The translations under genes were made by a program, and so were the position numbers. The notes beneath the pieces were generated by a model. That model was given only the letters and a program-made list of their open reading frames with translations, did no database searches and was not told the DNA's origin. From Acanthochlamys bracteata (taxonomy: Eukaryota; Streptophyta; Magnoliopsida; Pandanales; Velloziaceae), in assembly GCA_019914995.1 (NCBI GenBank), contig CM034145.1:124001-188000 (forward strand): a stretch of 64,000 bases of DNA. Direction: 5' to 3'. Numbering within the stretch: position 1 is the first letter of the stretch; each line of letters begins with the position of its first letter. Shown here piece by piece: positions 5,943-52,866 of this stretch.

Positions 5943-6251
5943 CTTTTGCTCAAAAACAATCAAATCTTTAACTGTCCTTTCCCTTTTCTTCTGTTAAATT
6001 TCTTCTTTTGTTCGTCAAGGTGAAAAAAGTTTGGATTTTTGATCGAGGAGTTAAGGTTCTTGATTCTTTTTATTTACAAAAATATCCAGCTACTGATTTG
6101 AAATCAGTATAAAGATTAGGGGTGCTTATGGAAAATTTTCAAATTTCTTGGATTTCATTTCCATGGCAGGGGCTTATCATCAAAACTTCTTGTTATCTAT
6201 CCATTATCATGGAGCCTGAGTGAGCTCTCTGTGAAAGAAAACCCTTCAAAG
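5943..6251. promoter_or_regulatory. Divergent promoter and leaders of the PPR and mTERF6-like genes
   Basis: The leftward PPR start (5942) and the first, non-coding exon of the rightward mTERF gene (ending 6251) are about 300 bases apart. The transcription starts of the two genes must therefore lie very close, so a shared bidirectional promoter is likely. No canonical TATA box stands out in either direction. The promoter role is inferred from spacing only. Confidence 0.45.
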
Positions 6252-28046: not shown

Positions 28047-29393
28047 CTAGAAAGCGAGGATATTGGAACAGGAGAAATAGTTGCATCGGAAAAAAGGAGC
28101 GGAACGATACTTTTTTCCGATAAAAGCTTGCCACACAAAAGCTGGCTTTGTCAACGGCACGGTCGGAGGAGGTGCGGCGGCCGAAATCATCTGTACAAAC
28201 TCTGTCATCTTCGGCCGGTCTATCGAGTTTGGATTGCTGCATGCGAGACCGAGCATCAATAACCGCTCTGCCTGTTCGGGATTATAATCTCCGGAAAGTC
28301 GGCCATCGACAGCTTCGAGGATTTGGCCTTCATGGTATAGATGCCAGACCCAATCGACGAGTAAAGGGAAGCCAGAGATGTCGCACCGTTGCTTACGGCC
28401 GCAAACAACTTCAAGAATAAAAGCGCCGAAGCTGAATACGTCAGACTCACGTGTTGCTTTACCAGTGTAGAAGCACTCAAAGGCGATGTAAGGGAGGGTT
28501 CCGGCTATATCAGTGTAAGAGCTTCGTCCGTTGTCAATGGCCCGGGCCAGACCAAAGTCGCCAAGACGTGCCTGGAAGTCTTCGTCGAGCATGACGTTGG
28601 ATGCTTTGAGGTCGCGATGCAAAACCGTCTGGTTGTAGTCGTAGTGGAGGTAATGAAGAGCCGAGGCGACTCCGGCAATAATGTTGTAGCGGCATTCCCA
28701 TTTGAGAGTAATCGGAACATGAACAGCTGCATCATCTCCGTCGCCGACGAAGAGGTGCTTGTCGAGGCTTCCGTTGGGCATGTACTCGTACACAAGTAGC
28801 AAGACACCTTTCCTGTGACACCAACCTATACCAAGAACAAACAATAACAACTCTCTAGCTTAAAACTTTTTGATCGAGTACTTGATTCTAAAAGAATCAA
28901 ATAACCAACGTAAAAAGTTACCAACTAAGGGTACGAGATGTCGGTGGCGAAGGCGGTTAATGATGCTGAGCTCTGCCAAGAAGTCGGCTTCGAATCGAGC
29001 ACTGCGTTCTTTCGAGAACATCTTTACTGCAACCTCGGTGGTCTTTTTACTACGGTCAGGTCCTGCTGCAGTACTACCGATGACACCTTTGTATACAACG
29101 CCGAAACCGCCTTCGCCTAACTTGTTCTTCTCGTTGAAATTCCTTGTTGCTTTCTTGAGCTGCTTGTACGCAAACTCCTTCGGCATGCCCGGTAATCGCT
29201 TAAGCGCCTCCGATATTGAATCAACTCTAGGTTCCTTTCCACGTTTACAGTACCACACAGCAGCAACGACAATCCCCGACGATAACATTATATATGTGAG
29301 GCGGGTCCGAGACCGGAACAGTATTGGTCCTAAGCTTATAAGAAGGATACATAAGACAATAACCACGGTGGTGACTGCTGCCCGCCGGTTCAT
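28047..29393 (-). CDS. LecRK-a: lectin-less L-type-lectin-family receptor kinase, C-terminus frameshifted
   Basis: Exon 1 is 29393-28922 and exon 2 is 28825-28047, joined in phase 1, for 416 residues. ATG 29393 opens MNRRAAVTTVVIVLCILL, a signal-peptide-like helix. After about 12 residues a second hydrophobic stretch (IMLSSGIVVAAVWY) leads directly to the juxtamembrane and kinase regions, so the whole legume-lectin domain is absent. Kinase motifs are present: GEGGFGVV, VAVKMFSKE, LHRDLKASN, LGDFGLARA. The activation segment reads GTLPYIAFE instead of the usual GT-x-GY-x-APE. A gain of about 4 bases near 28113 relative to copy c shifts the last 30 residues. Exon 2 is nearly identical to copy c. 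The upstream 700 bases resemble LecRK-g, not c. It may be a functional membrane kinase or a decaying gene. Confidence 0.75.
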
Positions 29394-30600
29394 CTAGGCA
29401 AACTATAAGAGGTCTACAAAAAGAAAAAGAAATGGAGAAGAAAGATTAGGGACAACTTTATCATCAGAGCTATTAATTTCTACTTACATATTGCATTGCA
29501 TTTCTGAGCAGATTCATATATTGTATTCTAAGCAAACAGTTGAATGTTTCAAATTGGTTAGGAACAAAAAAATTAATATTTTTGTTTCTATCCACTCTCT
29601 TTCTAATTACCTGCTTCTGAGAAGTAACCCTTTTTTTTGTACTAGTGTGGGCTATGATAGGATCCATTGTCACATGTATTCAACTGTGTAGATGTATTTG
29701 CTCGAATATTTTAGTTAATCCTTTTTTCATACTAAAATTTTTTTGTTACTTTCAGTGATTACATTTTCTGATCTATAAATATATAAGTTTGAGACTTGAA
29801 AGTCATGTATAATAGTGTTTTTTGGATTTTAAGGGCAACACAAAATCAATGATCACATCATACCTAAAATATTTGGAAAATCTTGGTGAAGGTCATCAAG
29901 GACGTGGATTAAATATTTGTTATTATGATTTAGTCCCTTAACCTGCAAATGAAGAAATCTGAATACTGTGTGTACTGATGACAGTGGTTAGTCATTGGTA
30001 ATTTGGGATAAGAATGTTTAATTTAAATGTGTGGGAACTTCTCTATTGTAATGACAGTGAAACGCAACATGCAGGTAACTAATATAACTACATGATCAGT
30101 CAAAGACAGAAAAAGTTAAAACTTGAAAAAGTCAAAATATAGAGAACAAAACTTAAAAAACTTGACCAAGTAAAATAAGTATTACTTCATACATATATAT
30201 CCTTTCTCCGGAAACGTTTGTTAAATTTAAGTCTTTATTTTGTGCTATTACAATTTTCTGGGATGCTGCTGTTTATGATCGATTTGCTGAACACGGTCTC
30301 TAGCGATTATTAATAGAAAATAAATTTTGATTTAGGCTAAGCAGTTATGTATGTCTTGTTAGCTAGGAAAATTCACAGACAAATCTAATGAACTTAAGTT
30401 TCACATATAACAAACCACTAATTAATTAAGTACTTGATGTTCTACCAAGTATGCAGATTTTTATTGCATCCCTCATTTAAAACACGCTAAATATTACATC
30501 TTCATTATGATACCACCATGCATATGTTTTTGTAGAAGGTTCATTTCAAATATAAGAAGCAAAAAGAAAACACCACAAAGAAGGCATTAAAAATGAAATA
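29394..30600. promoter_or_regulatory. LecRK-a upstream region homologous to the LecRK-g promoter
   Basis: Bases 29394 to about 30160 align, with gaps, to the region 58307-59770 upstream of LecRK-g. Shared runs include CATCTAGGCA at the start codon, TATCCACTCTCTTTCT, GCTTCTGAGAAGTAACCC, GATGTATTTGCTCGAATAT, GAGACTTGAAAGTCATGTAT and ATAATGACAGTGAAA-type words. The g copy carries two extra segments (about 58675-58910 and 59060-59530). The rest, to 30600, is AT-rich and serves as the 3' flank of LecRK-b. Confidence 0.65.
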
Positions 30601-32727
30601 CTATCTACGGAGGGAGGAAGTTGGAACAGGGGAAACAGTAGCAACGGAAAAAACTGCTGGAACGATGTCGTCATCAAAAGCTTGCCAAACAAAAGCCGGC
30701 ATGGTCAAGGGCACGGCCGGAGGAGGTACGACGTCTGCAATCATCTGCACCACTTCTGTCATCTTCGGACGGTCAAACGAGTTTGGATTACTGCATGCGA
30801 GACCGAGCAGTAGCAACCTCTCTGCCTGATCGTCGTCAAACTCGCCAAAAAGCCGACCATCGACAGCTTCGAGGATTTGACCTTCACTGTACAGATGCCA
30901 GACCCAGTCGACAAGTACATGGAAGCCAGGGATGTCACACCACTGTCTACGCCCGCATACAACCTCAAGAACAAAAATGCCGAAGCTGAATACGTCAGAC
31001 TTGCGTGTCGCTTTACCAGTGCGAAAGCACTCGAAGGCGATGTATGGGACTGTTCCGGCGAGATCGGTGTAGGAGCTTCGCCCGTTGTCAATAGCTCGTG
31101 CTAGACCGAAGTCTCCAAGACGTGCCTGAAAGTCTGCGTCGAGCATGACATTGGATGCTTTAAGGTCACGGTGTAAAACCGTCTGGTTGTAGTCGTAGTG
31201 GAGGTACTGAAGAGCGGAGGCGACTCCGGCAATGATGTTGTTGCGGCAGTTCCAAGAGAGAGTAGAAGGAGCGTGATCAAATTCTCCGTCGCCGCCGAAG
31301 AGGTGCTTGTCGAGGCTTCCGTTGGGCATGTATTCATACACAAGTAGCAAGACACCTTTCCTGTGGCACCAACCTATACATGCATACCAAGAACCAACTA
31401 TTATAAGAACTCTCTCTTGGTCGCAGCATTTAAGAGTAATTCATATTCATTCAATGGTCAGACAAAATTTACCAACTAACGGTACGAGATGGCGGTGACG
31501 AAGGCGGTTGATTATGCTGAGCTCGGCTACGAAAGCAGCTTCGAATGTACCACTACGTTCTTTAGAGAACATCTTCACCGCAACCTCGATGGTCTGTTTA
31601 CTACGGTCAGATCCTGCCCTGGTACTGACGACACCTTTGTACACAACGCCGAAGCCTCCTTGGCCTAACTTGTTCTTCTCGTTGAAATTATTTGTTGCTC
31701 TCTTGAGCTGTTTGTACGTGAACTCCTCCGGCATTCCCGGTAATTGTTTAAGCCACTCCGATATTGACTCCACTCTACGTTTGTGTTTACGTATATAGTA
31801 GCACACAGCTGCAGGTACAAGCACAGAAAGAATTATTGCTGTGCTTAGTAAGCCCACGAGGAGCTTAAATGTATTGGATGATGTTGGTGGCGCCCGTGAT
31901 GGGGGCGGGTACTGATTGTCGCGGAGATGGTAGACGGTGAGGTTCCATGCTAGGATGGAGTTGATCTGGTAGGTGTTAGAACCTGTTGATGCCGAGAAGC
32001 CGAAGTATGCATCCGACGAATTAAATATGTCTACGCCAAAGTTAAGAGGGGAATCGAGCACGCTGGTTTGAGGTTTCCCGTCGCCTTCCCTGGCTATGTA
32101 GGCCCAAATATGCTTCTTTTGGCCGTCATAGTCGATCCAAGCTCTGTACTTGGTCGGTGTCTTAGGTGCTAAAGTGATTTTGAAGGGCGTGAGAGATGCA
32201 GTAACGTTCGAGAAGTGGCTGTTGATATTGAGGCCGATGTGGTTGTCGTCGGGGTCGAACTGTTGCTTGAAGGTATCGAACTCAACCGCAATGAAACCCC
32301 TAGATTTAGGGAGACCAATGTACTCACCGCCCTGGCCATCAGTTTGCGAATAGGTAGATATGAGGAACGTGAAGCCCTCGCCGGGGGTCGGGTATGCTTG
32401 CTGGTCGATGTTGAACGTGAAGGAGGTGTTGAAGGAGGCAAAACTACGGCCGAACCACAGATTGATGTTGGGTATAAGAAAAGCTTGCCCCCATGAATTG
32501 AATTTATAACTACTGTTGCTTCTCTTCGGCGTAAGCTCAAGTGCGCCGTTGTCGAAAGTTGCAGAACCCCTGACGGTCAACCTATTGGTGACCGGCCAGT
32601 CGAATGAGAGAAATATGTAGTTGTAATGGAAGCGGAGCTCATCTTGTGAACCCGCCGGCGAAAAGCGGCAAACGTTCTCAAGAAGAAAGAAGATGATGAT
32701 CGTCGGTATTACCGCCGGTGGCCTCAT
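30601..32727 (-). CDS. LecRK-b: L-type lectin-domain receptor kinase
   Basis: Exon 1 is 32727-31473 and exon 2 is 31373-30601, joined in phase 1, for 675 residues. The start MRPPAVIPTIIIFFLL lines up with the other copies; an in-frame ATG at 32748 would add seven residues. Order: signal peptide, legume-lectin ectodomain of about 250 residues with the metal-loop motif VEFDTFKQ..FDPDDNHIGL, a proline-rich stalk, a membrane helix (LLSTAIILSVLVPAAVCYY) and the kinase. The kinase has GQGGFGVV, VAVKMFSKE, LHRDLKASN and DFGLARA. The activation segment is GTVPYIAFE, lacking the usual Gly and Pro. LecRKs act at the plasma membrane in pathogen, eATP or pollen signalling; the ligand here is unknown. It looks intact and ends PVPTSSLRR. 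Confidence 0.9.
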
Positions 32728-33548
32728 CGATGACCATGCAGACAACATATAGCTGCTTCACGGATGCAATTAATGGAAGAATTTCCATTGATTCAATTGT
32801 TGTGTGTGCATATATCTGACCACGATGAAAATGATAGCTAAGATAAAAACAATTGCTTGACACGGAAAGTCTTCATGCCTCTTGCAATATTCAAATTAAA
32901 TGGCATTGCTGCTGAGATAATATTCTTACATTAATAATTAGAAATCACAGCGTGTTGCGTACGTGGTACGTACATATATATATGACAATTAATTATAAAT
33001 TATGTTATTATACTAAAAGCATTTAGAATTTGAGAAAAGTTATTATACTTTTAGATATTTTCTCATTGACAGAACTAGAATATGATTTTTCTTTTCAGTT
33101 AATGAGTAAGTTATCCCATCATAAACTCACATATATTAGAGCAATGCAATTAAGACTTGCTAGAGCCTACAGTAGACTCGTGTGAGCATTATAAACAAAA
33201 AATTGATTACATCTTCATAAAGTGACTATAAAATACGGGCTCGAGTTTGATTCATAAGGTTTAGGATTGATGGGCTTTCAAGAATAAACTTTCTCTAGTC
33301 CCAAATATGAGGTTTGGGTAAATCCACCAAGAAATTAATGTCCCTGTCACTGGAAAATTCCCATATAATTTCCATCCCGTTGATTGTTTGGTCAGTGTGT
33401 TTATCATTGATTCTAAGATATTTTTATTTCATAACCAACTTCCAGTATTACATCTATCATGCAACATATGTTTTGGTATAAGATACATGTAAGAAGAAAG
33501 AAAAAAGATTAAAACATAACAAAAGATGCAGTTAGTATTACACACTAG
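32728..33548. other. LecRK-b leader and promoter; 3' flank of LecRK-c
   Basis: The word GCAATTAATGGAAGAA near 32766 is shared just upstream of copies b, d, e and the 39.9-kb fragment. The stretch 33090-33400 resembles the 3' flank of LecRK-d (35320-35790), for example GATGGGCTTTCAAGAA and CCCAAATATGAGGTTTGG. The middle is AT-rich. Confidence 0.55.
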
Positions 33549-34931
33549 CTACCTAATGAGGGAGGATGTTGGAACTGGAGAAATAGTTGCATCCGAAAAA
33601 ATGACGGGAATGATACTTTCGTCAAAAGCTTGCCAAACAATAGCTGGTTTTACCAACGGAACGGCCGGTGGCGGTGTGGTTCCTGCAATCATCTGTACCA
33701 CTTCTGTCATTTTCGGCCGGTCGAACGAGTTCGGGTTGCTGCATGCTAGACCGAGCATCAATAACCGCTCTGCCTGTTCAGGAACATAATCTCTGGAAAG
33801 TCGGCCATCGACAGCTTCGAGGATTTGGCCTTCATGGTATAGATGCCAGACCCAATCGACGAGTAAAGGGAAGCCAGAGATGTGGCACCGTTGCTTGCGG
33901 CCGCAAACAACTTCAAGAATAAAAGCGCCGAAGCTGAATACGTCAGACTCACGTGTTGCTTTACCAGTGTAGAAGCACTCAAAGGCGATGTAAGGGAGGG
34001 TTCCGGCTATATCAGTGTAAGAGCTTCGTCCGTTGTCAATGGCCCGGGCCAGACCAAAGTCGCCAAGACGTGCCTGGAAGTCTTCGTCGAGCATGACATT
34101 GGATGCTTTAAGGTCGCGATGCAAAACCGTCTGATTGTAGTCGTAGTGGAGGTAATGAAGAGCCGAGGCGACTCCGGCAATAATGTTGTAGCGGCAGTCC
34201 CAGTTGAGAGTAATCGGAACATGAACAGCTTCATCATCTCCGTCGCCGACGAAGAGGTGCTTGTCGAGGCTTCCGTTGGGCATGTACTCGTACACAAGTA
34301 GCAAGACACCTTTCCTGTGACACCAACCTATACCAAGAACAAACAATAACAACTCTCTCTTCGTCCCAGCTCTAGCTTAAATTAACTTTTTCCATTGAGT
34401 GATTCTAATTTCAGAAACATCAAATACATAACGTAAAAACTTACCAACTAACGGTACGAGATTTCGGTGGTGAAGGCGGTTAATGATGCTGAGCTCTGCC
34501 AAGAAGTCGGCTTCGAATCGAGCGCTGCGTTCTTTCGAGAACATCTTCACCGCAACCTCGGTGGTGTTTTTACTACGGTCAGGTCCTGCTGCAGTACTAC
34601 CGATGACACCTTTGTACACAACGCCGAATCCGCCCTGGCCTAACTTGTTCTTCTCGTCGAAGTTGTTTGTTGCTTTCTTTAGTTGCTTGTACTTAAACTC
34701 CTTCGGTACGCCTGGTAATTGCTTGAGCGCGTCAGATATTGAATCAAGTCTAGGTTTCTTTCGACGTTTGCTGTACCACATAGCTGCAGGGACAATCACA
34801 GACGACAATATTAACTCTAGGACTGTGACAATCCCAGGCTGGGAATATATTACTCCTAGGACGACAAGAAGGATACTTAAGACAATAGCCACGGCTGCCA
34901 AACACCCCCTTAGTATTGACCGATGGATCAA
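33549..34931 (-). pseudogene. LecRK-c: lectin-less receptor kinase lacking the N-terminal start codon
   Basis: Exon 1 is 34931-34445 and exon 2 is 34327-33549, joined in phase 1. Like copy a it lacks the lectin domain and has two hydrophobic stretches before the kinase (AAVAIVLSILLVVLGVIY and LELILSSVIVPAAMWY). The first codon of the open frame is TTG, at the position matching the ATG of copy a, and a stop lies three codons upstream. The first usable ATG is 34781-34779 in the second hydrophobic stretch. Translation from there gives 371 residues with no full membrane helix. Kinase motifs are kept (GQGGFGVV, VAVKMFSKE, HRDLKASN, DFGLARA), the activation segment is GTLPYIAFE and the C-terminus PVPTSSLIR is intact. 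It is either a 5'-decayed gene or one that now encodes a cytoplasmic kinase. Confidence 0.7.
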
Positions 34932-35943
34932 TTTTCAGACCACTTCCGTTGTGAGAATCGCAGAAAAAAATGGTGGAATAAAATAAAATTGAAGTTATCT
35001 AAATGTTCATAAATTTATTAGTGTTTTGACAACTATGGGTGTATTCTTTTCTCGTTAACCATTCAATTTTTTTTTTATATAAAAAAAAATCACTTATAAC
35101 TCCCTTTCAACAACATAAAAGAACATAAAAAATTACTTTTAATTTACTTTTTTTACAAAAAAATTAAATTTCTTTTAACAGTATTATTTATAAATACTCA
35201 TTTCTTAATACCACACTTTTGTGTAACTCACTCAAAAGCTTTTACTTAACCAGAATAAAAAGAAATTTTAGATTTCTCTTTGAGAAAACTTAATTATGAT
35301 TTTCACTTTTATTTTCAATTAATGAGAAAGTCCTCCAATCGTAAAGTCATACTAGAGCATAGCAATTAATAACTTATTTTGACGAATTTAATATTTTTTC
35401 AAAAATCAATTGGTGATAAAAATAGTAACCATAATTTTTTTAAATATCATTTTAACACTACATAGAGCAAGTGTTAAATGATAAATTTAAAATTATTATC
35501 AAAATTAATTGGCAAATAGAAAGAGTGAGTTTAAGTTTTTATAGATATTATTTCAAAATGATAAGTAAAGTGAGACTAAAATTTAGTTTAACACTTATTG
35601 ACAATTGTGAGCATGACAAACAAATTTTGGTTACATGCTCATACAGCAACTATAAAATATGAGCTTGAGCTTTATTTCAGAAGCTTTAGGATTGATGGGC
35701 TTTCAAGAAGAAACTTTAAGGCCCAAATATGAGGTTTGGATAATCACAAGAAATATCCCTACCACTGAAAATTGCGCATTTAATTTCCAAATCCATTGAT
35801 CGTTTTGAACACGTACTACGCATTAAATCTTCGTTGTATCACACCATGCATGCACTCACTGTTTTGGTACAAGATCCATTTTCATATATAAGAAACAAAA
35901 TATTAAAACATCACAAAAGACGCACTATAAAATTAAATACTAG
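34932..35943. other. AT-rich intergenic region; 3' flank of LecRK-d
   Basis: Right after the LecRK-c 5' end comes AT-rich sequence. At 35525-35600 there is a member of the dispersed GAGTTTAAGTTTTTATA repeat family. From about 35640 it matches the 3' flank of LecRK-c, which fits tandem duplication of gene plus downstream flank. No gene is seen. Confidence 0.5.
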
Positions 35944-38124
35944 CTACCTAACGAGGGAGGACGTTGGAACGGGAGAAATAGTTGCATCTGAAAAAATGGT
36001 CGGAACGAAACTGTCATTAAAAGCGTGCCAAACAAAAGCCGGCTTTGTCAACGGCACGGTCGGGGGAGGTGCGGCGCCAGCAATCATCTGTGCAGCTTCT
36101 GTCATCTTCGGACGATTGAACGAGTTCGGATTACTGCATGCGAGACCAAGCAGTAGTAACCGCTCTGCCTGATCGTCATCAAACTCACCAGAAAGCCGGC
36201 CATCGACAGCTTTGAGGATCTGTCCTTCATGGTACAGATGCCAGACCCAGTCGACAAGTAAATGGAAGCCAGGGATGTCACACCATTGCATACGCCCGCA
36301 AACAACTTCAAGAATGAAAGCACCGAAGCTGAATACGTCAGACTCGCGCGTCGCTTTACCAGTGTAGAAGCACTCGAAGGCGATGTATGGGACGGTTCCG
36401 GCGAGATCGGTGTAGGAGCTTCGCCCGTTGTCAATAGCACGTGCGAGACCAAAGTCTCCAAGACGTGCCTGAAAGTCTGCGTCGAGCATGACATTGGATG
36501 CTTTAAGGTCACGGTGTAAAACAGTCTGAGTGTAGTCGTAGTGAAGGTACTGAAGAGCGGAGGCGACTCCGGCAATGATGTTGTAGCGGCAGTCCCAGGA
36601 GAGAGTAGATGGAGCATGATCGGTTCCATCATTTCCTCCGCCGCCGAAAAGGTGCTTGTCGAGGCTTCCGTTGGGCATGTATTCATACACAAGTAGCAAG
36701 ACACCTTTCCTGTGGCACCAACCTATACATGCATACCAAGAACCAACTATAAGAACTCCCTCTTCTGAGCTTTAATTTGGATCGAGTTATTCATGTCTAA
36801 AAGTCAAACAAATTACTCAAAACTTACCTACTAACGGTACGAGATGGCGGTGGCGAAGGCGGTTGATGATGCTGAGCTCCGCTAGGAAAGCGGCTTCGAA
36901 TTTAGCACTGCGTTCTTTAGAAAACATCTTCACTGCAACCTCGATGGTCTTTTTACTATGGTCACGTCCTGCTGTACTACTGATGATGACACCTTTGTAG
37001 ACAACGCCGAAACCTCCCTGGCCTAACTTGTTCTTCTCGTTAAAGTTGCGAGTCGCCTTCTTTAGGTGCTTGTACTTGAACTCCTTCGGCATGCCCGGCA
37101 ATCGTTTGAGTGACTCCGATATTGGCTCCCTTCCAGGCATCTTTTGGCGTTTAATACAGCAGCATACAGCTGCAGCTATGGACACTACACCTGCTGTGCT
37201 CAGTATTCCCATGAGGATATAGTTGAACCGTGGAGCTCGCGATGAGGGCGGCACGGAATCAGGGAGATTGTCAATGGTGAGGTTCCATGCTAGTATGGAG
37301 TTGAGCTGGTAGGTATCAGAACCCGTTGTCGATGTGAAGCCGAAGAATGCCCTCGACCAATTAAATATCTCTTTGCCAAGGTGTAGGGGCGAATGAAGCA
37401 CGCTGCTTTGAGGTTTCCGCTCGCCTTCTCTGGCTATGTAGACCCATATATGCTTCCTCTGGCCGTCGTAGTCTATCCAAGCAGTGTAGTTAGTCGGTGT
37501 CTTAGGTGCTAGGGTGATGTTGAAGGGCGTGAGCGATGCAGTAACGTTGGAGACGATGCTGTTGATATCGAGGCCAATGTGGTTGTCGTCTGGATCATAC
37601 GGTTGTTTGAAGGTATCGAATTCAATCGCAAAGTAACCCGGATATGTAGAAAGACCGAGGTACTGACCTCCCTGCTGTCCCAAAGTGAAATACGTAGTGA
37701 CGAGGAACGTGAATCCCTCACCAGGGGTTGTGTTTGCTTGTCGGGCTATGTTGAATGTGAAGGAGGTGTTGAAGGAGGCAAACTGACAACGGTTGATAGC
37801 TCCGGAGTTGCCGTTTCCTGTGCTGTTGTTAGAAGCAGGGTACCCGTTGTAGCAGTACCAAAGATTGAAACCGTTCCAAAGTGCAGCATCTCCCCATGCA
37901 TCGAATCGATTGCTGTCGTTACTGATCGGGGTAAGCTGAATTGAGCTGTTGTCGGATAAAGATGCACGGCCGGCTGTGTAGATGAGGTTCTTCATTGATG
38001 AATTGAACGTGTGAAATGTATAGCTGAGAACGTCGCGTGGTTTCTCTGAATCCGCCGATGAAGAACGGCAAAGGATCACAAGAAGAACCAAGATCGTAAT
38101 CAGTACTACCGCCGACCTCATCAT
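35944..38124 (-). CDS. LecRK-d: L-type lectin-domain receptor kinase
   Basis: Exon 1 is 38124-36828 and exon 2 is 36722-35944, joined in phase 1, for 691 residues. Start MMRSAVVLITILVLLVILC is a clear signal peptide; it aligns with copies e and f. A longer frame from ATG 38196 would put 24 extra residues before it and is less likely. The ectodomain is a legume lectin with many Asn glycosylation sites and the loop IEFDTFKQPYDPDDNHIGLD. A helix (LMGILSTAGVVSIAAAVCCC) precedes the kinase, which has GQGGFGVV, VAVKMFSKE, LHRDLKASN and DFGLARA. The activation segment GTVPYIAFE is atypical. The C-terminus PVPTSSLVR is intact. The 0.9 kb upstream is shared with copies e and f. Confidence 0.9.
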
Positions 38125-39547
38125 GCAAGCTGCAGGAGAAGGAATGCAATTAATGGAAGAATAAGCTAGCTGCATGCATGGTATAGGTTCTTGCATCTGT
38201 TTATTTATTTAAAATGGGTATGTTAGTGTCTAATGATGAAATTGATAGCTACGAGAAACGTAAGCTTGACACAGATCTCTTTCTCTTCATGAAGAGAAAT
38301 GGCATTGCGTGATAAAGAGAAATGGTTTCTGGCACACCAATCCACACGGTTTCCATCCTCTCAAATACAATGAAAGTATCTACGTCGAGAGGAAGGATTA
38401 TTTACACAGTTAATCAAAAGAATGGAAGCTCTTGACTATTTTTATTGAATTAATTTAAAATGATCTTATTGTAACGTAAGTAGGTGGAACTTAATTCGTT
38501 GTGAATAAAAGTCTTCCCGTAGATAATAACCCCAACTTTTTTTTTAAAGCAAAAATATATTTTGTTCGCGGATAATATGATCAGCAAATTAGACCTCTTC
38601 TTCTTACCTTCTGGATTTTGAATCTATTCTTTTGAATTTTTATTTCTATTTTTTAATTTTTAAGGACAACTTTAGATTGAAGTTGTAGCTTGAAACTGAT
38701 TGTGAAAAAATAAAAATAAAAAAGAAAATTATTTTCAGCTTTTGAAAGAAGCCAAAAGCTAGAATATAGCTAACATCTTGTCGAATTATTTCACTAAAAC
38801 CAATCAGTTAAGGAACAGCAGGCACGGGTAGCTCATAAGCTCCAGAATTAATGTTTTGACGAATTGAAGGTTCTTTCTAAAGTCATTTGACAAAAATAAG
38901 AGTGAATTTAAGTTTTTATAAATATTATTTCAAAATTATTAATAAATAATATGAGATTAAATTTTATTTATACATATCCTCTGAGTGGTTATTTTATTTT
39001 TTATGTAAAATGAAATGTGATGTTTATTCTGAAATGAAATATACTATATATTTGAAATAAAGTGTACCACTATTTTAAATAAAATAGACTAATTATTTTG
39101 AAATAAAGTGGATCATAAAAGTTCTTAATGAAATAGACAATAAAATGAACTATCACGATCCTAAATGAAGTGGATATAGAAGTTCCTAAAAAAATGAATA
39201 ATAAAATTAAATTTAACTAGACTGATATGTTTTAGCATGTTTTGATATGATGTGACGAAGTTTTTAAACTTTGTATATCCTATTTAACAGACAATAAATA
39301 AGTGGATATTAGTAAAGTTTCTATAAGCAACAAATAAAAGAAATATGTTAGATAAATCTTCAAGATCAATTCAGAATGGAGTGATGAATTGAATTGATAA
39401 TAAAAAATTTTTGATTAATAATAGTTTTTAAAGATAGTCCGTAGATAGCCGGATATTTGTATTATAAATTTTCAAACAATATATTAGTACAGTAAATTTT
39501 ACAGTAAAAAAATTTAAAAGTCACGTGTAGATAGCCGGCTATATGTA
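38125..39547. promoter_or_regulatory. LecRK-d promoter block and AT-rich spacer
   Basis: Bases 38140 to about 38810 match the upstream regions of copies e and f, including ATTGATAGCTACGAGAAACG at 38241-38260 and AGCTTTTGAAAG..GCCAAAAGCT near 38740. A dispersed-repeat member lies at 38898-38970. The following 39000-39200 block of AAATAAAGTG-like words also resembles 22380-22500. No gene is seen. Confidence 0.55.
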
Positions 39548-39873
39548 GATAGCTCTCGAGGAGCCGTTTCCTGTGCTGCTGTTAGAAGCAGAGTAATCGC
39601 TGGAGCAGTACCGAGGATTGATACCGGTAAGAAGTGTAGCTTCTCCCCATTCATCGAATCGGTTGCTGTCGTTACTGATCGGAGTAAGATGCAATATGCC
39701 GTTGGAGGATGAAGATGCAAAGTTGCCTAGGTGGAAGAGGTTCTTGATTGATGAATTGAACGTTGGAAATGTATAGCTGAGAACGCCGCCGAGTTTCCCT
39801 GAATCAGCCAATGAAGAACGGGAAAGGAGCAGAAGAAGAAAGAAGATCATGATCATACTACCGGCGACCTCAC
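39540..39873 (-). pseudogene. LecRK fragment: signal peptide and start of the lectin domain only
   Basis: About 110 codons align with the N-terminus of copies d to f: SRSSLADSGKL, LSYTFPTFNSS, LHLTPISNDSNRFDEWG and SNSSTGNGSS. The residue matching the start Met is GTG (39873-39871), and one base is missing a few codons later. An internal ATG (39856) restores the lectin frame. Homology stops abruptly near 39545, followed by a stop and by short GTAGATAGCC repeats. No kinase or membrane helix follows, so this is a broken tandem copy. Its upstream flank (39900-40260) still matches the shared LecRK promoter block. Confidence 0.85.
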
Positions 39874-42201: not shown

Positions 42202-42964
42202 TTAATGACAATCTTGAAAAACCAAACTTCTTCCTATGTATGTACAGAAATCCAGAAAACAGAGAAGTTTGAAGGTTTTTTTACTGCAGCAATATGCAAT
42301 AAGTTCTTGCACACTACAAGTAAAATCAACACAACCAATACTAGATCTTATAGTAAACTATTTTTCTTCAATGTCGTGCGACTTTTATTGCCATCAGTGT
42401 CACTCACAACTTCATTATCGATTTTGTCAGAATGAATATTTTACTAGTTTATCTCAATGGACGTGAGACTTTTCTCGTATCTATCTCATTCAAAATTTTT
42501 ATTGTCAATTTTATCAAAATAAATACTTTACTGTTTAATTTAGTGTCAAATTAGTAAAGGACGGTTTGACAATTTATTAATTTTCAATTTATATTTTTAC
42601 ATATTTTTATAATAATTTATAAAATTCACTTAAAAATTAAAAATATAAAAAAAAATTTATGTAATAAAATTTTTAATTTTTAATTTTTATTTTTAAATTA
42701 AATAACAATATATTTATCAAAATAAATAAAATATATAAAAACTTTATTTTATAGCCATCCTACGCACTTTGCGACGGTTATGCCGAATATCCTTTACACA
42801 AACAATTCAGAAAGTCTGACTATTTGAAACATACACCAATGGATAATATAATTAATAACTAATTTAAATAGCGAGATAACAGTAACCTATATATGTTATA
42901 TTTTGGTTGTATTTTTTTAATTATAATTTATTTTTTATAGAAATTATTTAGCTTATTCTAATCA

Positions 42965-43562
42965 TAGTTGTAAAATCCGGACCGGTCTGTCCGGATCGAC
43001 TCAAAAATTATCGACCCGAAATATAAATCGATCGAATTTATAATAAAACCGTTTATACAATCAATCCGCTCCGACCCGCTTTGATCAGTTCTGACCCCTT
43101 CGTCCAGATCAAATCGAATTAAATTAAATTTTAAAAATTTAAATTTATGATATAGTGATGCAAAAATAATTATTATTAGCTTTATATTGAAATATAATAT
43201 ATAGTTTAGATTTTATTTTTGGATATGATAATGCAAAAAAATAAATTTGTTATATTTTATTTATAAATATTTTTTATTAGTGGATTTTAAGTTTTATATT
43301 ACTAATTCTATTAAATTGTAAAAAAAATAACAAAATTATTTTAAAACAAATAATTTCTTTTGAAATTTATTATTTAAAATATTTTTTTATTTTTCTATAT
43401 ATTTTTTATTAGTTTATTTTTTCTTTTATGCTTTTTAAAAAAATATTAATAAATGTTCGTGGTACTGTCAAAATTCTAATATTTTTAACATAATAGGTCA
43501 ACTCGTAATCTGTTGACTCAAACAGTTTTCTGATTCAATATCCAATCCAATTTTTACAATTA
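42965..43562. mobile_element. Degenerate inverted-repeat element (hAT-like MITE)
   Basis: The ends read TAGTTGTAAAATCCGG and, on the other strand, TAATTGTAAAAATTGG. The interior is rich in CCGACCCG-like words near the left end, a feature of common plant MITEs. No convincing target duplication is visible, so it is old or the ends are slightly misplaced. Confidence 0.4.
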
Positions 43563-43778
43563 CCTCGCCAACTACATAAAAAATGAAATGACACTTCTAG
43601 CCAAGAAAATATAAAATTAAACTTATTTTCATTAATATTATTTATAACAATTTATTTTACCATAAATTATTTTTTAGGTTGTTGCTTGCGTAAAAAATAA
43701 TGCACCCTTTACTATCAATCTTTTAACAACTTATCCAAATTCAAAGTTAAGCACTATCTAATGAGGGAGGAGGTTGGA

Positions 43779-45940
43779 TCAGAGGAAATAGTTGCGTCGG
43801 AGAAAATAGTCGGAACGATAATGTCGTCGAAAGAGCCAAACAAAAGCCGGCTTTATCAACGGCACGGGCGGAGGAGGTGTGGTTCCTGCAATCATCTGTA
43901 CGACTTCTGTCATCTTCGGCCGGTCGAACGAGTTCGGATTGCTGCATGCTAGACCGAGCAACAATAACCGCTCTGCCTGTTCGGGAATATAAACTCCGGA
44001 AAGCCGACCATCAACAGCTTCTAGGATTTGGCTTTCACGATGCAGATGCCAGACCCAGTCGACTAGTAAATGGAAGCCAGAGATGTAACACCATTGTCTA
44101 CGGCCGCATACAACTTCAAGAATGAAAACGCCGAAGCTGAATACATCACACTCACGCGTTGCTTTACCAGTGTAAAAGCACTCAAAGGCGATGTATGGTA
44201 GGGTTCCAGCGAGATCGGTGTAGGAGCTTCGCCCGTTTTCAATGGCCCGGGCGAGGCCAAAGTCTCCAAGACGTGCCTGAAAGTCTGCGTCGAGCATGAC
44301 ATTGGATGCTTTAAGGTCACGGTGCAAAACCGTTTGATTATAGTCGTAGTGGAGGTACTGCAGAGCAGAGGCAACTCCGCCAATGATGCTGTAGCGGCAG
44401 TCCCACGAGAGAGTTGTCAGAGCATGATCAGTTGTGTCATCTTGGTTGCGGACGAAGAGGTGCTTATCGAGGCTTCCATTGGGCATGTACTCGTATACAA
44501 GTAGCAAAACACCTTTCCTATGACACCAACCTAAAGACCCATATCAAGAACAAATAATAAGAACTCTGTTTCGCAGAACTTAAGTTTTGAGTAATTTACC
44601 TTAACACAAGTCAAACAAGTAACACAAACCATACCAACTAACGGTAGGAGATGGCGGTGTCGAAGTCGGTTAATGATGCTGAGCTCTGCCAAGAAGTCGG
44701 CTTCGAATTTAGCACTACGTTCTTTCGAAAACATCTTCACTGCAACCTCTGTGGTCTTTTTTCTGCGGTCAGGTCCTGCTGCAGCGCTGATGGCACCTTT
44801 GTACACAACGCCGAAGCTGCCCTGGCCTAACTTGTTCTTCTCGTTGAAATTGTTTGTTGCTTTCTTGAGCTGTTTGTACGTGAACTCCTTCGGCATGCCC
44901 GGTAATCGTTTAAGCGACTCCGATAACGGTTCCGTTCTAGGTTTCGTTTGACGTTTATAGTAGCACATAGCTGCAGCTACAAGTATAGACACTAGAACGG
45001 CTGTGCTTATTGTGCCCATGAGGAGTTTATATTTATTTGATGATGTCACCAGTGATGTGAGCCGGTACTCGTCGTCAGGGAGCTTCTCGACGGTGAGGTT
45101 CCATGCTAGTACGGAGTTGAGCTGGTAAGTATTAGAACCAGTTGACCCTGTGAAGCCGAAGTATGTTGTCCGCGAATTAATGAAGTCGTCGCTAAAGTCA
45201 AGGGGCGAATTGAGCACGCTGGTTTGAGGTTTCCGCTCGCCTTCTCTGTCTATGTAGACCCATATATGCTTCCTTTGGCCGTCGTAGTCGATCCAAGCAG
45301 TGTAGTTAGTCGGTGTCTTAGGGGCTAAGGTGATACTGAAGGGCGTGAGGGATGCAGTAACATTGGAGACGATGCTGTTGATATTGAGGCCGATGTGGTT
45401 GTCGTCTGGATCGTACGTTTGCTTCACCGTATCGAATTCTACCGCAATGAAACCCTTAGATTCGGGAAGACCAATGTACTGTCCAGCCCGGCCTCTACTA
45501 TAAGGATCGGAAGAGACGAGGAAGGCGAAACCCTCTCCGGGTGTTGTGCTTGCTTGCCGGGCGATGTTGAATGTGAAGGAGGTGTTGAAGGAGGCAAACT
45601 GACAACGTTGGATATCTCGCGAGGTGGTGTTTCCGGTGCTGCTGCTGGAAGAAGAGTAATCATAGTAGCACTTCGAAAATTTGATAGAGGGTTTAAGTAA
45701 AGCTCGTCCCCATGCATCGAATCGCTTGCTGTCGTTACTGTTCGGTGTAAGCTGCAAGGAACCGTTGTCGGATAAAGCTACAGAGCCTTCTCGTTCGAAG
45801 TGGTTTCTAAGAAGTTTGTCAATGAACATGCGAAATGTATAGCTGATAACGTCGCCGAGTTTCTCTGAATCTGCTGGTGAAGAACGGCAAAGGATCACAA
45901 GAAGAGAGAAGATCAAGATCAGTACTACCGGCGACCTCAT
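43779..45940 (-). CDS. LecRK-e: L-type lectin-domain receptor kinase with frameshifted C-terminus
   Basis: Exon 1 is 45940-44635 and exon 2 is 44530-43779, joined in phase 1, for 685 residues. Start MRSPVVLILIFSLLVILC is a signal peptide; the open frame to 45973 begins with TTG. The legume-lectin ectodomain carries VEFDTVKQTYDPDDNHIGL, and the helix LMGTISTAVLVSILVAAAMC precedes the kinase. Kinase motifs are intact: GQGSFGVV, VAVKMFSKE, LHRDLKASN, DFGLARA. The activation segment is GTLPYIAFE. About two bases are missing near 43832 relative to the other copies, so the last 20 residues differ (ending RRNYFL) and translation stops about 20 bases before the ancestral stop. The catalytic domain is complete, so the gene may still work. 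Confidence 0.87.
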
Positions 45941-47309
45941 CGTGCATGCAACTGCTGCACGGCAAGGAAACAATTAATGGAAGGAGTAGCTAGCTGCACG
46001 GTATACTTTTCTTGCATTGATTTGTTTATTATTAGAAGGGGGAAGAATATATGTTTTAAGTCTCTAATGATGAAATTTGAAAGCTACGAGAAACGTAAGA
46101 TTGAAATGACATTAATTGCGTGATACAGGAAATGGTTTTTGGCACCATTAAACGTGGTTTCAATCCTCACGGACCTCACCGATACAATAAAAAAGATCAG
46201 GTCAAGAGTGGAAGCTCCTTAAAATTTTTATCGTATTTAAAAAGATCCAATAGTGACGAAAGCAGCCAATAACTCGATGTGAAGGGTCTTCGCGTAGACA
46301 ACCCCAATTTTCTATATTTAAGAAAAAAAAAGTTTGGTCGCTGATAGTATGGTCAGCAAATTAGACCGTTTCTTCTTACCTTTAGATTGAACGAAAGTTT
46401 GTAACTCGAAACTTAGACTTCGTTCTTTTAGGGTTAGTGAGATTAAATTTTTGTTATATGAGCAACCTTAATATATATATTTCTCTGATAACAAAATACT
46501 GAGTTAATCATAATGGTCTCTTCATCATATGTTAATTCTTATAACTACTTCTGAAACAAATTTGTAGAAGTAAAATTGTTGAAAGTTTAAAATTTAAATC
46601 ATTTTAATCATATTTTGTTTGTCATGCATCTTAGATGTTGATAACTTCAATCTAAACTTTGTAATACATTTGTAGTGATTCGAATGTGTAAATAGGGCCT
46701 ATCACTAAGCCTGTGTAATATCGAAATCAACCAGAGTTTAATAGAAATAAACGTAAATTTTGAAATTTAAAATAATAATAATAATATATAAAATATTAAA
46801 TTTAAAGTGGTAATTAAAAAAAATAAAGTTCTGTGGTGATTGAAACGTGAGCAAACTTTCGATGTCTACAATGCCCATCCATTTTAATTCCATTCTTCAT
46901 TAATACCAATATTGTTGTCTCTCTGAAATCTTAAAATAATATAGGATTATTTGATTGAGCTAAAGTGAAGTGAGTTTTTTGAAACTAATTTTTTAAAATA
47001 AATTGTTAAAAGTTTATTAGGCTTTATTTGAAATAAATTTTTGAAATGATATTCTATATTCAATTATTAATAAATAAAAACTCAAAGTATTATTTATAAT
47101 ATATATATCCAATTTAGCGATACTCTTTATGTAAATTATGCAATCAACAAAAATATATCAAATCAGCTCCTCTTTCCTATCCTGAATTCCAAATTCGTAT
47201 CTCGAAACTAAAATAGATTTCAACTGAACCCTTCAAAAATTAAATCAAAATTTCCTTCTTCGTCTAATATAGGAAAATAAAATCACAACATTTAGAAAAC
47301 TACTCCGAA

Positions 47310-47583
47310 CAATAAGTAAATATTTGATAGTGCTTATTGAAAAAAAATTTTATGAAAAAGTTGATAGTTTAGAAATTTTTGACAAACGAATCTTATTGTT
47401 TTACTTCAAAAAATAAAAATAATTAATAAAAAATTTCACGATATAGAATTTTTTTATAATTTTAAAATTTTTAAAAAATTCTATAAAATATTTTAAATAT
47501 TTTTTTAAAAAATATAAAATACAAAATTAGAATAAAAAGAAAAAAAAAGTTCTTCCAAATATTTACTAAATGCGAGCCGATCA
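47310..47583. mobile_element. Candidate short MITE with AGTAAATATTTG inverted ends
   Basis: The left end reads AGTAAATATTTGATAGTGCTT and the right end, on the opposite strand, AGTAAATATTTGGAAGAACTT. The interior is almost only A and T. The ends match at about 16 of 21 positions. No clear target duplication was found. Similar AT-rich blocks lie at 23700-23895 and in the first WAK intron. Confidence 0.45.
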
Positions 47584-48042
47584 GAAAAACTACGATATTC
47601 AATTAGAGAAAACGCTTAAAAATTCTTATAAAATAAATTTTAATTAAAATAAAAAAGATTTTAAAACTTTTTCTAAAATGATTTTATTTTTACTATTAAA
47701 AAAATTATGTAAAATATATGTATTGCATAATATATATTTTTTAATTTAAAAAAAATTGTAATATAGTATGAAAATTTTGTTGAAAAATTAATATATTTAT
47801 TTGAAATGATAAGTAATTGAAAAACTCTTCCAAACGTCACCTTAGTCCAAACTGCAAACAAATCCAATCCAAAATCAACTCCGGTTAACCAATATCTACA
47901 AATCGCCTCCACAAACTCAATCAAATCCACATAAATAAGGAACTACACCACGTAATTAACACCGGCTTCATCAAATCTATTAATTTTAAGAAACAAACAA
48001 GATGAACTGAAAAAATTAGAAAAGAAAAAGAAGAAGAAGAAA

Positions 48043-48331
48043 GGGCGTGTTTCAATCGCCCGTAACTTTACTTTTTTCCGTCAGATTTTGAGTTTCGAAT
48101 AATTTATATGTTTCAATTACACAAAGAATTCAAAACTTTACTTTTACATTCAAAATTTCAGTTTCAACTTTTTTATTTGCACATTTTTTAATACAACTAT
48201 ATTTTTCAATTTTCACTTCCAAAATCTATTGAAACATAAATACTGAACTCCACTTCCATTTTATTTTTCAAAATATTTTACTTTCTATTTTTTACATTCA
48301 CGAAACTCAGTTACGGGTATTTGAAACACGC
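48043..48331. mobile_element. Candidate MITE with 20-22 base inverted ends
   Basis: The left end is GCGTGTTTCAATCGCCCGTAAC. The right end on the opposite strand is GCGTGTTTCAAATACCCGTAAC, a match of about 19 of 22. Length is about 290 bases, with an AT-rich interior full of ACTTT and TTTCAA words. The start resembles Tourist/PIF-type ends, but no TTA or TAA target duplication is evident. Confidence 0.55.
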
Positions 48332-50681
48332 GCAAAGACCAAGAGGTTGAGCTAACTAACCTGGAAATTTTATTAAGGAATTCAGATTTTTGGAAGGAGG
48401 TCGGATCGACCGAAAAACGCGAGCAACGATCGGAGATAGCAAGAAGGGTGAGCAGTAGCGAAATGCAGAAAAAATAATTTTTTATAAAAGTGAGCAAAAT
48501 TACAAATTTTATTTGGTTAGAAATAAACTAATAGAAAATATCATTCAAAAACAAAAATTTTGACCTAAATATAAAAATTATTAAAAAATTATTTTTTGTT
48601 AGAAAAAGGCAATTCTGATTACAAATGTGTTTTAATATCAAAGAATTTCACTTCTTTTATCTGATTTTAAATTCTATTTATTCTACGTATTTCAATTATT
48701 ATTCCAAATTTTTTTTATATTAAATTCTATTTTATCGAAATTTTACTTTAAAATTTATCTCATATGTTTTATTTATTATTTTGATCTCTATTTCTATTGA
48801 ATTTTAATTTATATAGAATTTTACTTTTAAGAATTAACTTTTAAAAAGCCTTCTGTTTCTGTAATTAAAACACACCCTTAATCAAAGTCCTATGTTGAAA
48901 CTAAATTCTTGCCAAATATTTAACTTTTTCATTGATGTGGTCCAAATTCTCTAGAAGTGTCTAGCATCGTCTACAGCGTCAATTTGGATGCTTCTGTTAA
49001 GATAGGGAAGAAGATAAGTTGTATCCTATTAAAGCTATTTTTTTTTTTCTTGCAAAAAGTAAAAGAAAATTAAAATTATCCAAACTTATACATTCAAAGG
49101 TTTTTCGTAGCAATATTCTCTCTCGAATTTTTAAAGAAACCTAATATGAACTGTTCAAAATAAATTAATAAATAAAAAGTTGTTGAAACTCCTAAATGTT
49201 AATTTTGAGAATAATAATAACTTAAAAATTATAGTTTATAATTTATATTTTATTGATAAGTTAAATCAAGTTTTGCAAAAATTTATAAAATAAATTTATT
49301 TTATATCCAGCAGACAACAAATTAGCTATGTTAAATCATAGTCATCAAACAACTAACTATTTAGTTATCGATTACATGGGATTTATTTACGAACAAAACA
49401 AAGGATCGAGTTTATCAACGAGGTGCCTGCTCAAGTTTCCAATTTAAAATCTTACAGACATACATATTAATGAAGCAAGATACACATATCATATTGTATA
49501 ATATCAATGAGCCAATCATTATTCTTATTCACAAAAATTGTCAAGTTTAATCTTCAAGAAGGAAGGCAAAAAATACAGACTCACTAAACTCAGGAAGAAG
49601 CAATAAAGTAGAGTCAATCAGTTAGAGTTCACCTCACTTAAGGCAGTCAACTCAGCGAGAAACAACAAATCAACAAAAACCAACTCAGCTGAAAAAATTT
49701 GAAAAAGACAATAGTTGAAACAATTTAGAATTGTAGGCGAAAGTTTCAAATTATCTTCATCATTGCATTTAATGCCGATAAAAATTTGTCACTGTAAAGA
49801 GATACCAATGAAAATTTTTCTCCAAGAAAAAGAACCAGCTATCTGTAAAAATAAAAAATATTATAAGAAACAGAGAAGCTGAAAAACAGAGGGTGTGAGA
49901 CACATCGAGTGAAAATTAGAAAAGAAATTTGCATTACATCGATTCAATTTCTCAGGTGAAGTAATTTCTCTTATTGTTAATCAGTTACAGAGCATCATCT
50001 TCATGTAACTAGTTTGATCATCTCAATAAAAAATTTTAAAATCATTCATTTATATTGAGATAAATTCTGTCCTTAACCTTATTTTTTAAATTTTCTTGTA
50101 AATGTGTGATATAGTGCTAGATGCGCTTGTTAAAAAAGTTCGGTTGGAGTTTGGTAAAAAGTTTTTAAATTTTGTAACATGACTATCAAGTCAGCCAATG
50201 AGACTGGGTATCTAGTAGGCTGTAAAGAGCTATCTTTAAAAAAAAACTCTTAAAAACAAGTGTGTTTGGTGAAGCACTTTGATGTTGATGAATATAATTT
50301 GTTAAAAATTTGGTAAAGATTTAACTCTTATAATAAAGCATCCATTAATATAGACAAAAGAATTTATCGAATTATGTAAATACTCGGAGTTCTCTTACAT
50401 TAACCTAAATACCCATAATAAATAGTGATAGTCTCTGTTTGCAGAATATAAAATTACTCATAACCAGTTGAAAACTTGCTAACTGTAGTTATACAAAAAT
50501 TTTATTTATCAAATCAATTCACTCTTTTACTCTTGGTTTGATCTTGCGGGAGATTTCAACAAAAGTTTGTAACTAAATTTAAAAACAGCAATACTTCGGT
50601 GCACATACTGTTTTTTACATATATAGTTCACAGGAAATAAAAGATTGAAAAACACTACAAAAGATGCAATTAAATTAAATA

Positions 50682-52866
50682 CTACCTAAGCAGGGATTCC
50701 GATGGAGTAGGAGAAATGGTTGCATTGGTGAATAGGGTCGGAACGATAAAATCGTCGTAGGGTTGCCAAACAAAAGCTGGCTTTGTCAACGGCACGGTCG
50801 GAGGAGGTATGATGCCTGCGATCATCTTTACGACTTCTGTCATCGTCGGCCGGTCGAACGAGTTCGGATTGCTGCATGCGAGACCGAGCAACAATAACCG
50901 CTCTGCCTCTTCGGGGACATAATTGCCTAAAAGCTGGCCATCGACAGCTTCAAGGATTTGGTCTTGACGGTACAGATGCCAAACCCAGTCGACGAGTAAA
51001 TGGAAGCCAGGGATGTCACACCATTGCCTACGCCCGCATACAACTTCAAGAATTAAAGCGCCAAAGCTGAATACGTCAGACTCACGGGTCGCTTTACCAG
51101 TGTAGAAGCACTCGAAGGCGATGTAAGGGAGGGTTCCAGCGAGATCGGTGTAGGAGCTTCGGCCATTGTCAATGGCTCGGGCGAGACCAAAGTCCCCAAG
51201 ACGTGCCTGGAAGGCTGTGTCGAGCATAACATTGGATGCTTTAAGGTCACGGTGCAAAACCGTCTGATTGTAGTCGTAGTGGAGGTATCGAAGAGCAGAG
51301 GCAACTCCGCCAATGATGTTGTAGCGGCAATCCCACGAGAGAGTAGTCGGAGGGTGATCGCTTCCATCATCTCCTTTGCTGACGAAGAGGTGTTTGTCGA
51401 GGCTTCCGTTGGGCATGTATTCATACACAAGTAGCAAGACACCTTTCCTGTGGCACCAACCTGTAAATTCATGCCAAGAACAAACAATATGAACTATCTC
51501 TTCGTCATTCATGTTCAAAATTCAAACGAATCACGTATAATTTACCAACTATTGGTACGAGATGGCGATGGCGAAGGCGGTTAATGATGCTGAGCTCTGC
51601 CAAGAAGTCGGCTTCGAATCGAGCACTCCGTTCTTTAGAAAACATCTTCACTGCAACCTCCATGGTCTTTTTACTACGATCAGGTCCTGGTGCTGCACTG
51701 ATGACACCTTTGTACACAACGCCGAATCCGCCCTGGCCTAACTTTTCCTTCTCGTTGAAGTTGTTTGTTGCTTTCTTGAGCTGTTTGTAGGTGAACTCCT
51801 TCGGCATGCCCGGTAATCGTTTAAGCGACTCCGATAATGGATTCGCTCTAGGTTTCTTTTGACGTTTATAGTAGCACACAGCTGCAGCTACAAGCATAGA
51901 TACTATAACTGCTGTGCCTAGTATTTCACCTATGAGGAGTTTATATTTATTGGATGATGTCGGTGGCGCCAGTGATGGGCCCCGGTACTCATAATCCTGG
52001 AGTTTGTCGAAGGTGAGATTCCATGCTAGGATGGAGTTGACCTGATAGATGTTAGAACCCGTTGACGCCGAGAATCCGAAGAATGCACCTGGACTTCGAT
52101 CTATGAAGTTATGGCTGGTAAATTGAAGGGAAGAATCGAGCACGCTGGTTCGAGGTTTTCGCTCGCCTTCTCTGGCTATGTAGACCCATATATGCTTCCT
52201 TTGGGCGTTGTAGTCGATCCAAGCAGTATAATTAGTCGGCCTCTCAGGGGCTAGGGTGATGTTGAAGGGCGTCAGTGATGCAGTAACTTTGGAGACGATT
52301 CTGTTGATATTGAGGCCGATGTGGTTGTCGTCTGGATCGTACGTTTGCTTCATCGTATCAAATTCAATCGCAACGAAACCTTCATTTTCAGAAAGACCTA
52401 TGTACTGGCCACTCCGGCCATCAGCACGCGGATAGGCAGTGACTAGGAAGGTGAAGCCCTCGCCAGGAGTTGTGTTTGCTTGCCGGGCGATGTTGAATGT
52501 GAAGGAGGTGTTGAAGGAGGCAAACCAACAACGTGGGGTACCTCCCCCTGTGGCGTTTCCGTGGCTGCCGTTAAAAGAAAAGTAGTCATAGTTGCAGTAC
52601 GAAAGTTTGGTTTCGCGTAAAAGAAAAGCTCGTCCCCATGCATCGAATCGGCTGCTGTCGTTACTGATCGGAGTAAGCTGCAGTGAGCCGTTGTAGGATA
52701 AAGATGCAGAGCCGCCTAGGAAGAAGGGGTAATTCATTGGTGAGTTGAACGAGGGAAATGTATAGCTAAGAACGTCGTCGCCGAGTTTCTCTGGATCTGC
52801 CGGTGAAGAACGGCAAAGGATCACAAGTAGAAAGAAGATGATGATCAGTACTACCGGTGACCTCAT
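50682..52866 (-). CDS. LecRK-f: L-type lectin-domain receptor kinase
   Basis: Exon 1 is 52866-51546 and exon 2 is 51460-50682, joined in phase 1, for 699 residues. A signal peptide (MRSPVVLIIIFFLLVILC) and a legume-lectin ectodomain at about residues 30-285 (IEFDTMKQTYDPDDNHIGLN) come first. A short stalk and the helix EILGTAVIVSMLVAAAVCYY follow, then the kinase from about residue 372. Catalytic motifs are complete: GQGGFGVV, VAVKMFSKE, LHRDLKASN and DFGLARA. The activation segment is GTLPYIAFE. The C-terminus PTPSESLLR is in frame. This is one of the cleanest members of the altered-loop group. The ligand and downstream partners are unknown. Confidence 0.91.

Follow-up and report, generated by a model that had tools for sequence, protein, structure and literature searches.

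A 64-kb stretch of the Acanthochlamys bracteata genome (CM034145.1, positions 124,001 to 188,000; hereafter the window) carries on its minus strand, at 28047-58306, seven related two-exon kinase genes, which we call copies a to g; copy h lies on C7 and copies i and j on C19 of the same genome. In all six copies a to f the GTxGYxAPE segment of the other lectin receptor-like kinases (LecRKs) of this genome is replaced by GT[VL]PYIAFE, and copy g next to them reads GTFGYIAPE, as a sequence-only reading had described; both forms were located on the minus strand (Table 1). We found that a third site has changed together with the two in the segment, that the altered form has a single origin and is unique in this genome, and that purifying selection acts on the kinase domain, all of whose catalytic residues are retained. 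The chances are in our view evenly balanced that copies a to f are catalytically competent RD kinases of the L-type LecRK family in which the three-site change around the P+1 loop, the APE motif and the alphaF-alphaG loop retunes docking or activation.

Three changed sites among retained catalytic residues

For comparison we used 22 other LecRKs of the genome, namely copies g and i and 20 of the 21 loci L025-L045, a subset of 149 genome matches. Copy j, whose frame is broken at APE, and L044, which has a very long branch and keeps GTLGYIAPE, were excluded. The Gly and the Pro of GTxGYxAPE are present in all 22, and neither of the two replacing residues occurs in any of them, so that, as far as these 22 show, they are not shared with unrelated LecRKs. 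Altogether 64 alignment columns are invariant in the 22 sequences. While 58 of these are unchanged in copies a to f and three differ in one or five copies, three differ in all six: the equivalents of PKA positions 203 (Gly to Pro, in the P+1 loop), 207 (Pro to Phe, in APE) and 237 (Pro to Gln, turning GRRP into GRRQ in the alphaF-alphaG loop). Between GT and this loop copies a to f align to PKA without gaps, and the numbering was taken from PKA chain positions.

The residues expected of a working kinase are in place. The beta3 Lys, alphaC Glu, HRD Asp, DFG Asp, hinge Thr and APE Glu are found in all six copies, as are the DLK Lys and the catalytic-loop Asn, and the translations of all six contain the Arg of "RP", the expected partner of the APE Glu. 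The earlier description of the catalytic Lys, HRD Asp, DFG, APE Glu and its partner Arg as kept was accurate, and none of the catalytic residues whose loss would mark a pseudokinase is missing from copies a to f. The hinge Thr is retained in >99% of RD receptor-like kinases against 30% of non-RD ones (PMC4718614). As the catalytic residues are kept and so is the pair Glu208-Arg280, copies a to f most likely encode active kinase domains of the RD Ser/Thr type.

To place the segment in a wider context, patterns were searched in the whole 195.5-Mb genome with reversed patterns as control. GTxxYxAFE gave seven matches, all of them in the a-f clade (copies a to f and the broken copy h at C7:541629), and none in the reversed control; the motif is not a product of chance. 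A Pro at the 203 position ahead of an intact [ASPT]PE had no match genome-wide. GTxGYxAxE matched 141 times (reversed control 0); among the 100 of these matches that were listed, the APE position holds Pro in 99 and Leu in one (C2:12616951), the latter in a stretch containing stops. GTxxYxAPE with a residue other than Gly was found at 75 sites (23 + 52, with one match in each reversed control), which are pattern matches whose kinase identity is not confirmed site by site. These 75 sites, set against the 141, together with the Pro of the solved Chk1 chains in the PDB (GTLPYVAPE), contradict the earlier view that the Gly is nearly invariant in active kinases: it is typical of receptor kinases and not of kinases in general. 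Since Chk1 and also Wee1 (LANE) deviate from it, the GTxGYxAPE segment as a whole is not required for kinase activity in general. The forms PYIAFE, GYIAFE, PYLAFE, GYLAFE and PYVAFE had no match in a literature search that covered few subscription papers and carries little weight. GTLPYVAPE and LPYVAPE had none in literature text either, the Chk1 sequence being taken from the PDB, and a 24-residue query found no match in the PDB. Copy h itself (locus L049, C7:537000-544500) is a dispersed seventh copy that has both a lectin and a kinase part, reads GTLPYIAFE and GRRQ, and is interrupted by frame changes.

The loop before the motif had also been described as shortened, and it is indeed five residues shorter in copies a to f than in copy g. 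When LecRKs of this genome are aligned, copies g, i and j show a 4-residue insert (GGVR, GVVP) before GT that is absent from copies a to f. Compared with the other aligned LecRKs of the genome, and with the solved LecRK kinase domain 6cth, the loop is only one residue shorter. An unusually short loop was therefore rejected as a feature of the group, the insert of g, i and j accounting for most of the difference. Two alignments set the gap differently, before GT or after the Pro, and so the Pro of copies a to f may have replaced the Gly of GTxG, or it may be the Pro of a g-type insert (GVVP) that a 12-base deletion brought next to the Tyr.

Selection on the kinase domain and competing explanations

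A codon model over 315 codons of the kinase domain of copies a to f gave a ratio of nonsynonymous to synonymous substitution rates (omega) of 0.218, far below 1, and omega = 1 was worse by a doubled log-likelihood difference (2dlnL) of 183.7. When copies g and i were included in a three-ratio model (304 codons), omega was 0.19 both for a to f and for g and i, and 0.045 on the stem leading to a to f, the last estimate being unreliable because synonymous change on this branch is saturated (branch length 3.5). On single tips omega = 1 was rejected for b, c, d, e and f (2dlnL 14.0 to 26.0). For the tip of copy a omega was 0.42 and omega = 1 was not rejected at 5% (2dlnL 3.4). Copies a and c together showed an omega of 0.285 versus 0.207 elsewhere, a difference that is not significant (2dlnL 1.1). 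In the full-length copies b, d, e and f the lectin domain has an omega of 0.495 (236 codons) versus 0.222 for the kinase domain. For most copies the earlier proposal of selection and not decay was therefore upheld.

Our main argument comes from five residues that serve catalysis only: the beta3 Lys, HRD Asp, DLK Lys, Asn and DFG Asp. The chance that all five stay in all six copies under neutrality is 1.9e-6, and for copies b, d, e and f alone 6.8e-5; these probabilities hold for independent sites and in the absence of conversion between copies, a process that may have occurred. Their retention suggests that catalysis, and not the fold alone, was selected after the docking change. With selection still acting on the catalytic residues, it is more likely that copies a to f are working kinases whose docking site has been retuned than that they are dead.

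How the three changes could act may be pictured as follows. On the common-ancestor branch of copies a to f positions 203, 207 and 237 changed, all of them on or packed under the substrate-docking side of the C-lobe. A Pro ahead of the P+1 Tyr would stiffen the turn that contacts the substrate, and the Phe that replaces the APE Pro, along with the Gln at 237, would refit the packing beneath. With the Glu208-Arg280 pair kept and the catalytic machinery intact, the outcome would be a changed docking of substrates or partners, or a changed settling of the activation segment. In favour of this reading, changes of each kind occur in well-known kinases, namely Chk1, Wee1, CK1 and an apicomplexan CDK subfamily. 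E203, P207 and P237 are listed among highly coupled sites of Ser/Thr kinases, where two networks are tied to substrate-binding regions, and E203 of PKA is a docking site for P-6 (PMC2690836). The packing of W222 of PKA on A206-P207 is described as required for substrate recognition (PMC10515842), Glu208-Arg280 is a hub in PKA (PMC3415842), and residues for specificity and for catalysis are reported to form largely separate sets (PMC4644237). We infer that the proteins of copies a to f are made and active and that their docking or activation differs. It is a more tentative idea, and on balance an unlikely one, that the coordinated change created a new P+1/APE platform that redirects substrates or allows settling without phosphorylation, and that tandem amplification with a faster-evolving lectin ectodomain followed. 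A role of copies a to f in immunity is a guess.

Several observations weigh against a retuned docking site. The stem omega of 0.045 gives no sign of positive selection when the motif arose. The neutral probabilities for retention of the Pro, Phe and Gln at 203, 207 and 237 are 0.19, 0.09 and 0.19, which is weak evidence, and the three residues were chosen for being invariant. The solved domain 6cth carries a Ser at 237, so this site is less fixed outside the genome. That all three changed sites appear in the list of coupled sites has a p-value of about 0.08 within PKA 200-239 and is suggestive only. The change at 203 may be mild, PKA Glu203 being a surface docking residue. An AlphaFold model of the exon-2 part of copy f, made with six window relatives, reached a mean predicted local distance difference test score (pLDDT) of 39 and a predicted template modelling score (pTM) of 0.26 and was left unused.

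One alternative is that copies a to f are active kinases whose three changes amount to a structurally compensated, functionally neutral swap, with substrates and activation as in the g type. We regard this as somewhat unlikely. In its favour, 203 and 207 vary among well-known kinases, 203 also among the 75 genome sites, and the packing of W222 on A206-P207 (PMC10515842) together with the coupling of 203, 207 and 237 (PMC2690836) means that the changes could compensate for each other. The very long stem of the a-f group (synonymous divergence, dS, saturated or >3), without a sign of positive selection, would have left time for neutral exchange. Against this stands the fixation of all three sites in the 22 other LecRKs of the genome, which suggests that they are not freely exchangeable in the family.

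A second alternative, improbable to our mind, is that the altered P+1/APE region abolishes phosphotransfer and that the proteins signal as scaffolds through partner binding. The region is sensitive, as substitutions of the P+1-loop Tyr drastically reduce ERECTA function (PMC5441908), and plants do have receptor pseudokinases such as BIR2 (PMC10868138). Maize SIRK1, in which DFG reads DYS and APE reads PPE, crystallised in an inactive conformation although it binds an ATP analogue (PMC5445127), and a rice jacalin-lectin kinase whose motifs read HKN and PPE is proposed to be a pseudokinase (PMC13165441). In the cited cases, unlike in copies a to f, letters of DFG or HRD or the ATP site are gone. 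In copies a to f the Thr, Tyr and Glu of the activation-segment motif are kept as well, and the five catalysis-only residues look selected, with a neutral probability of about 2e-6 for their retention. The scaffold role is for this reason the less likely of the options offered by the sequence-only reading. The sequence of the P+1 loop and APE is by itself insufficient to call a kinase inactive. Least credible of all is a drifting array with the motif as an inherited relic, to which the missing lectin domain of a and c, the broken copy h, a lectin-exon remnant between d and e and the tip omega of a would fit, but which is opposed by the tip tests of b, c, d, e and f and by kinase frames and GT...AG splice ends that are open throughout copies a to f.

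Layout and origin of the array

Table 1. Features of the kinase array, in window positions, with the motif and the codon equivalent to PKA 237 (Pro to Gln).
Feature	Positions	Strand	Intron	Motif	Motif positions	PKA 237 equivalent	Remarks
Copy a	28047..29393	-	28826-28921	GTLPYIAFE	28476..28502	28389-28391	Two-exon kinase gene, presumed transmembrane segment, no lectin domain
Copy b	30601..32748	-	31374-31472	GTVPYIAFE	31030..31056	30943-30945	L-type LecRK, full-length
Copy c	33549..34934	-	34328-34444	GTLPYIAFE	33978..34004	33891-33893	Presumed transmembrane segment and kinase, no lectin domain
Copy d	35944..38196	-	36723-36827	GTVPYIAFE	36373..36399	36286-36288	L-type LecRK, full-length
Remnant	39605..39856	-					Lectin-exon remnant between d and e
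Copy e	43779..45940	-	44531-44634	GTLPYIAFE	44181..44207	44094-44096	L-type LecRK, full-length; frame of C-terminal tail differs from f
Copy f	50682..52866	-	51461-51545	GTLPYIAFE	51111..51137	51024..51026	L-type LecRK, full-length
Copy g	55912..58306	-	56736-57033	GTFGYIAPE	56392..56418		Canonical neighbour, 4-residue insert before GT

In copies b, d, e, f and g the lectin domain is encoded in exon 1 together with the N-lobe as far as LVG, and by eye this exon also holds a leader and a hydrophobic stretch; exon 2 begins with WCHRKG. The hydrophobic stretch between lectin and kinase domain is presumed to be the transmembrane segment, as judged by eye from the translations. In the nine modelled copies the intron is in phase 1 with GT...AG ends; its length is 85-117 bases in copies a to f and 298-347 in g, i and j. 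The domain profile scan found the legume lectin domain (PF00139, cut-off 26.3 bits) in b, d, e and f with 160.1, 156.8, 158.7 and 150.3 bits and no match in a or c. Of the six genes previously taken together as LecRKs, four (b, d, e and f) are thus full receptors of this type, and a and c are not filed as such. The kinase domain (PF07714) scored 152.8, 154.8 and 156 bits in the spliced copies f, a and c, and 41.3, 41.4 and 46.0 bits in exon 1 only of b, d and e. Exon 2 matches that of copy f at 81% in b, 82% in d and 86% in e.

The translation of copy c has no in-frame ATG upstream of the presumed transmembrane part. Over 146 bases the 5' end of copy a resembles the leader of g at 71%, and 28860-29478 looks as though this g-like leader had been fused to the hydrophobic stretch and the kinase, the lectin domain perhaps having been lost through recombination between neighbours.

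In a protein tree of 30 kinase domains (a to g, i, j and L025-L045) copies a to f were separated from all other sequences with an ultrafast bootstrap of 100, in agreement with the earlier suggestion that the change arose once before the duplications. Bootstrap values of 100 were also obtained for the group of g, i and j and for a to f plus g, i and j versus the remaining LecRKs. Pairwise dS (NG86) is saturated or >3 between a to f and g or i, 0.15-0.61 among a to f and 0.45 between g and i, and the a-f lineage therefore looks older than the split of g and i. On either side of the array, at 24.6-27.0 kb and at 60.5-61.4 kb, the window matches C19 at ~6.80-6.82 Mb, probably a duplicated chromosome segment. 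The C19 stretches read contained only the g-type copies i and j and no genes of the a-f type, which looks like a loss there or an arrival on C20. Copy j (L047, C19:6800000-6808500) has an exon 2 nearly identical to that of the adjoining copy i, and a one-base difference breaks its frame at APE; it may be a recent pseudogene or an assembly error.

Nucleotide trees built from exon 2, from the kinase part of exon 1 and from the lectin part conflict with one another, and some of the conflicting groups have moderate support: b and d group with a support of 98 in exon 2, versus d with g, i and j at 79 in exon 1. Gene conversion between copies may thus have occurred, and if so it would make the motif look more conserved. 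As four synonymous combinations of codons 203 and 207 are present, a single conversion event would be insufficient to explain the invariance of the motif.

Elsewhere in the window, 60467-63172 holds a 412-residue kinase open reading frame (ORF) beside a 266-residue EGF_CA ORF, probably one wall-associated-kinase-like gene, and 4620-5963 holds a 447-residue ORF for a pentatricopeptide-repeat protein. The stretch 50169-50555, perhaps a repeat element, shares ~71% identity with the C19 DNA that lies upstream of copy j.

Comparison with known systems

The array amounts to a natural experiment: three docking-floor residues that are fixed in relatives of the same genome have changed, the catalytic residues are still selected, and copy g next door serves as control. 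It makes it possible to test by a few residue swaps what the APE Pro and the GTxGY Gly do in receptor kinases of plants.

Copies g, i and j presumably resemble the S.5 clade of L-type LecRKs. With the S.5-like CaLecRK-S.5 of pepper, for which a role in broad resistance and priming is reported (PMC5066492), the array shares the legume-lectin ectodomain and the RD kinase domain. In contrast to LecRKs of this kind, copies a to f carry P203, F207 and Q237, and a and c have lost the lectin domain.

Chk1 has the same G-T-L-P-Y as copies a to f (GTLPYVAPE), but it keeps the APE Pro, is not a receptor kinase and is alike in this segment only. Like copies a to f, CK1, in which SIN replaces APE (PMC2690836), and Wee1, with LANE, have no APE Pro; CK1 however lacks the APE Glu as well, and neither of the two has a Phe there. 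The closest natural parallel we found is the Pfcrk-5-type CDK subfamily of Apicomplexa, in which APE has become PLE together with changes in the P+1 loop (PMC3239843), although these kinases belong to the CDK group, carry different residues and are of unrelated origin.

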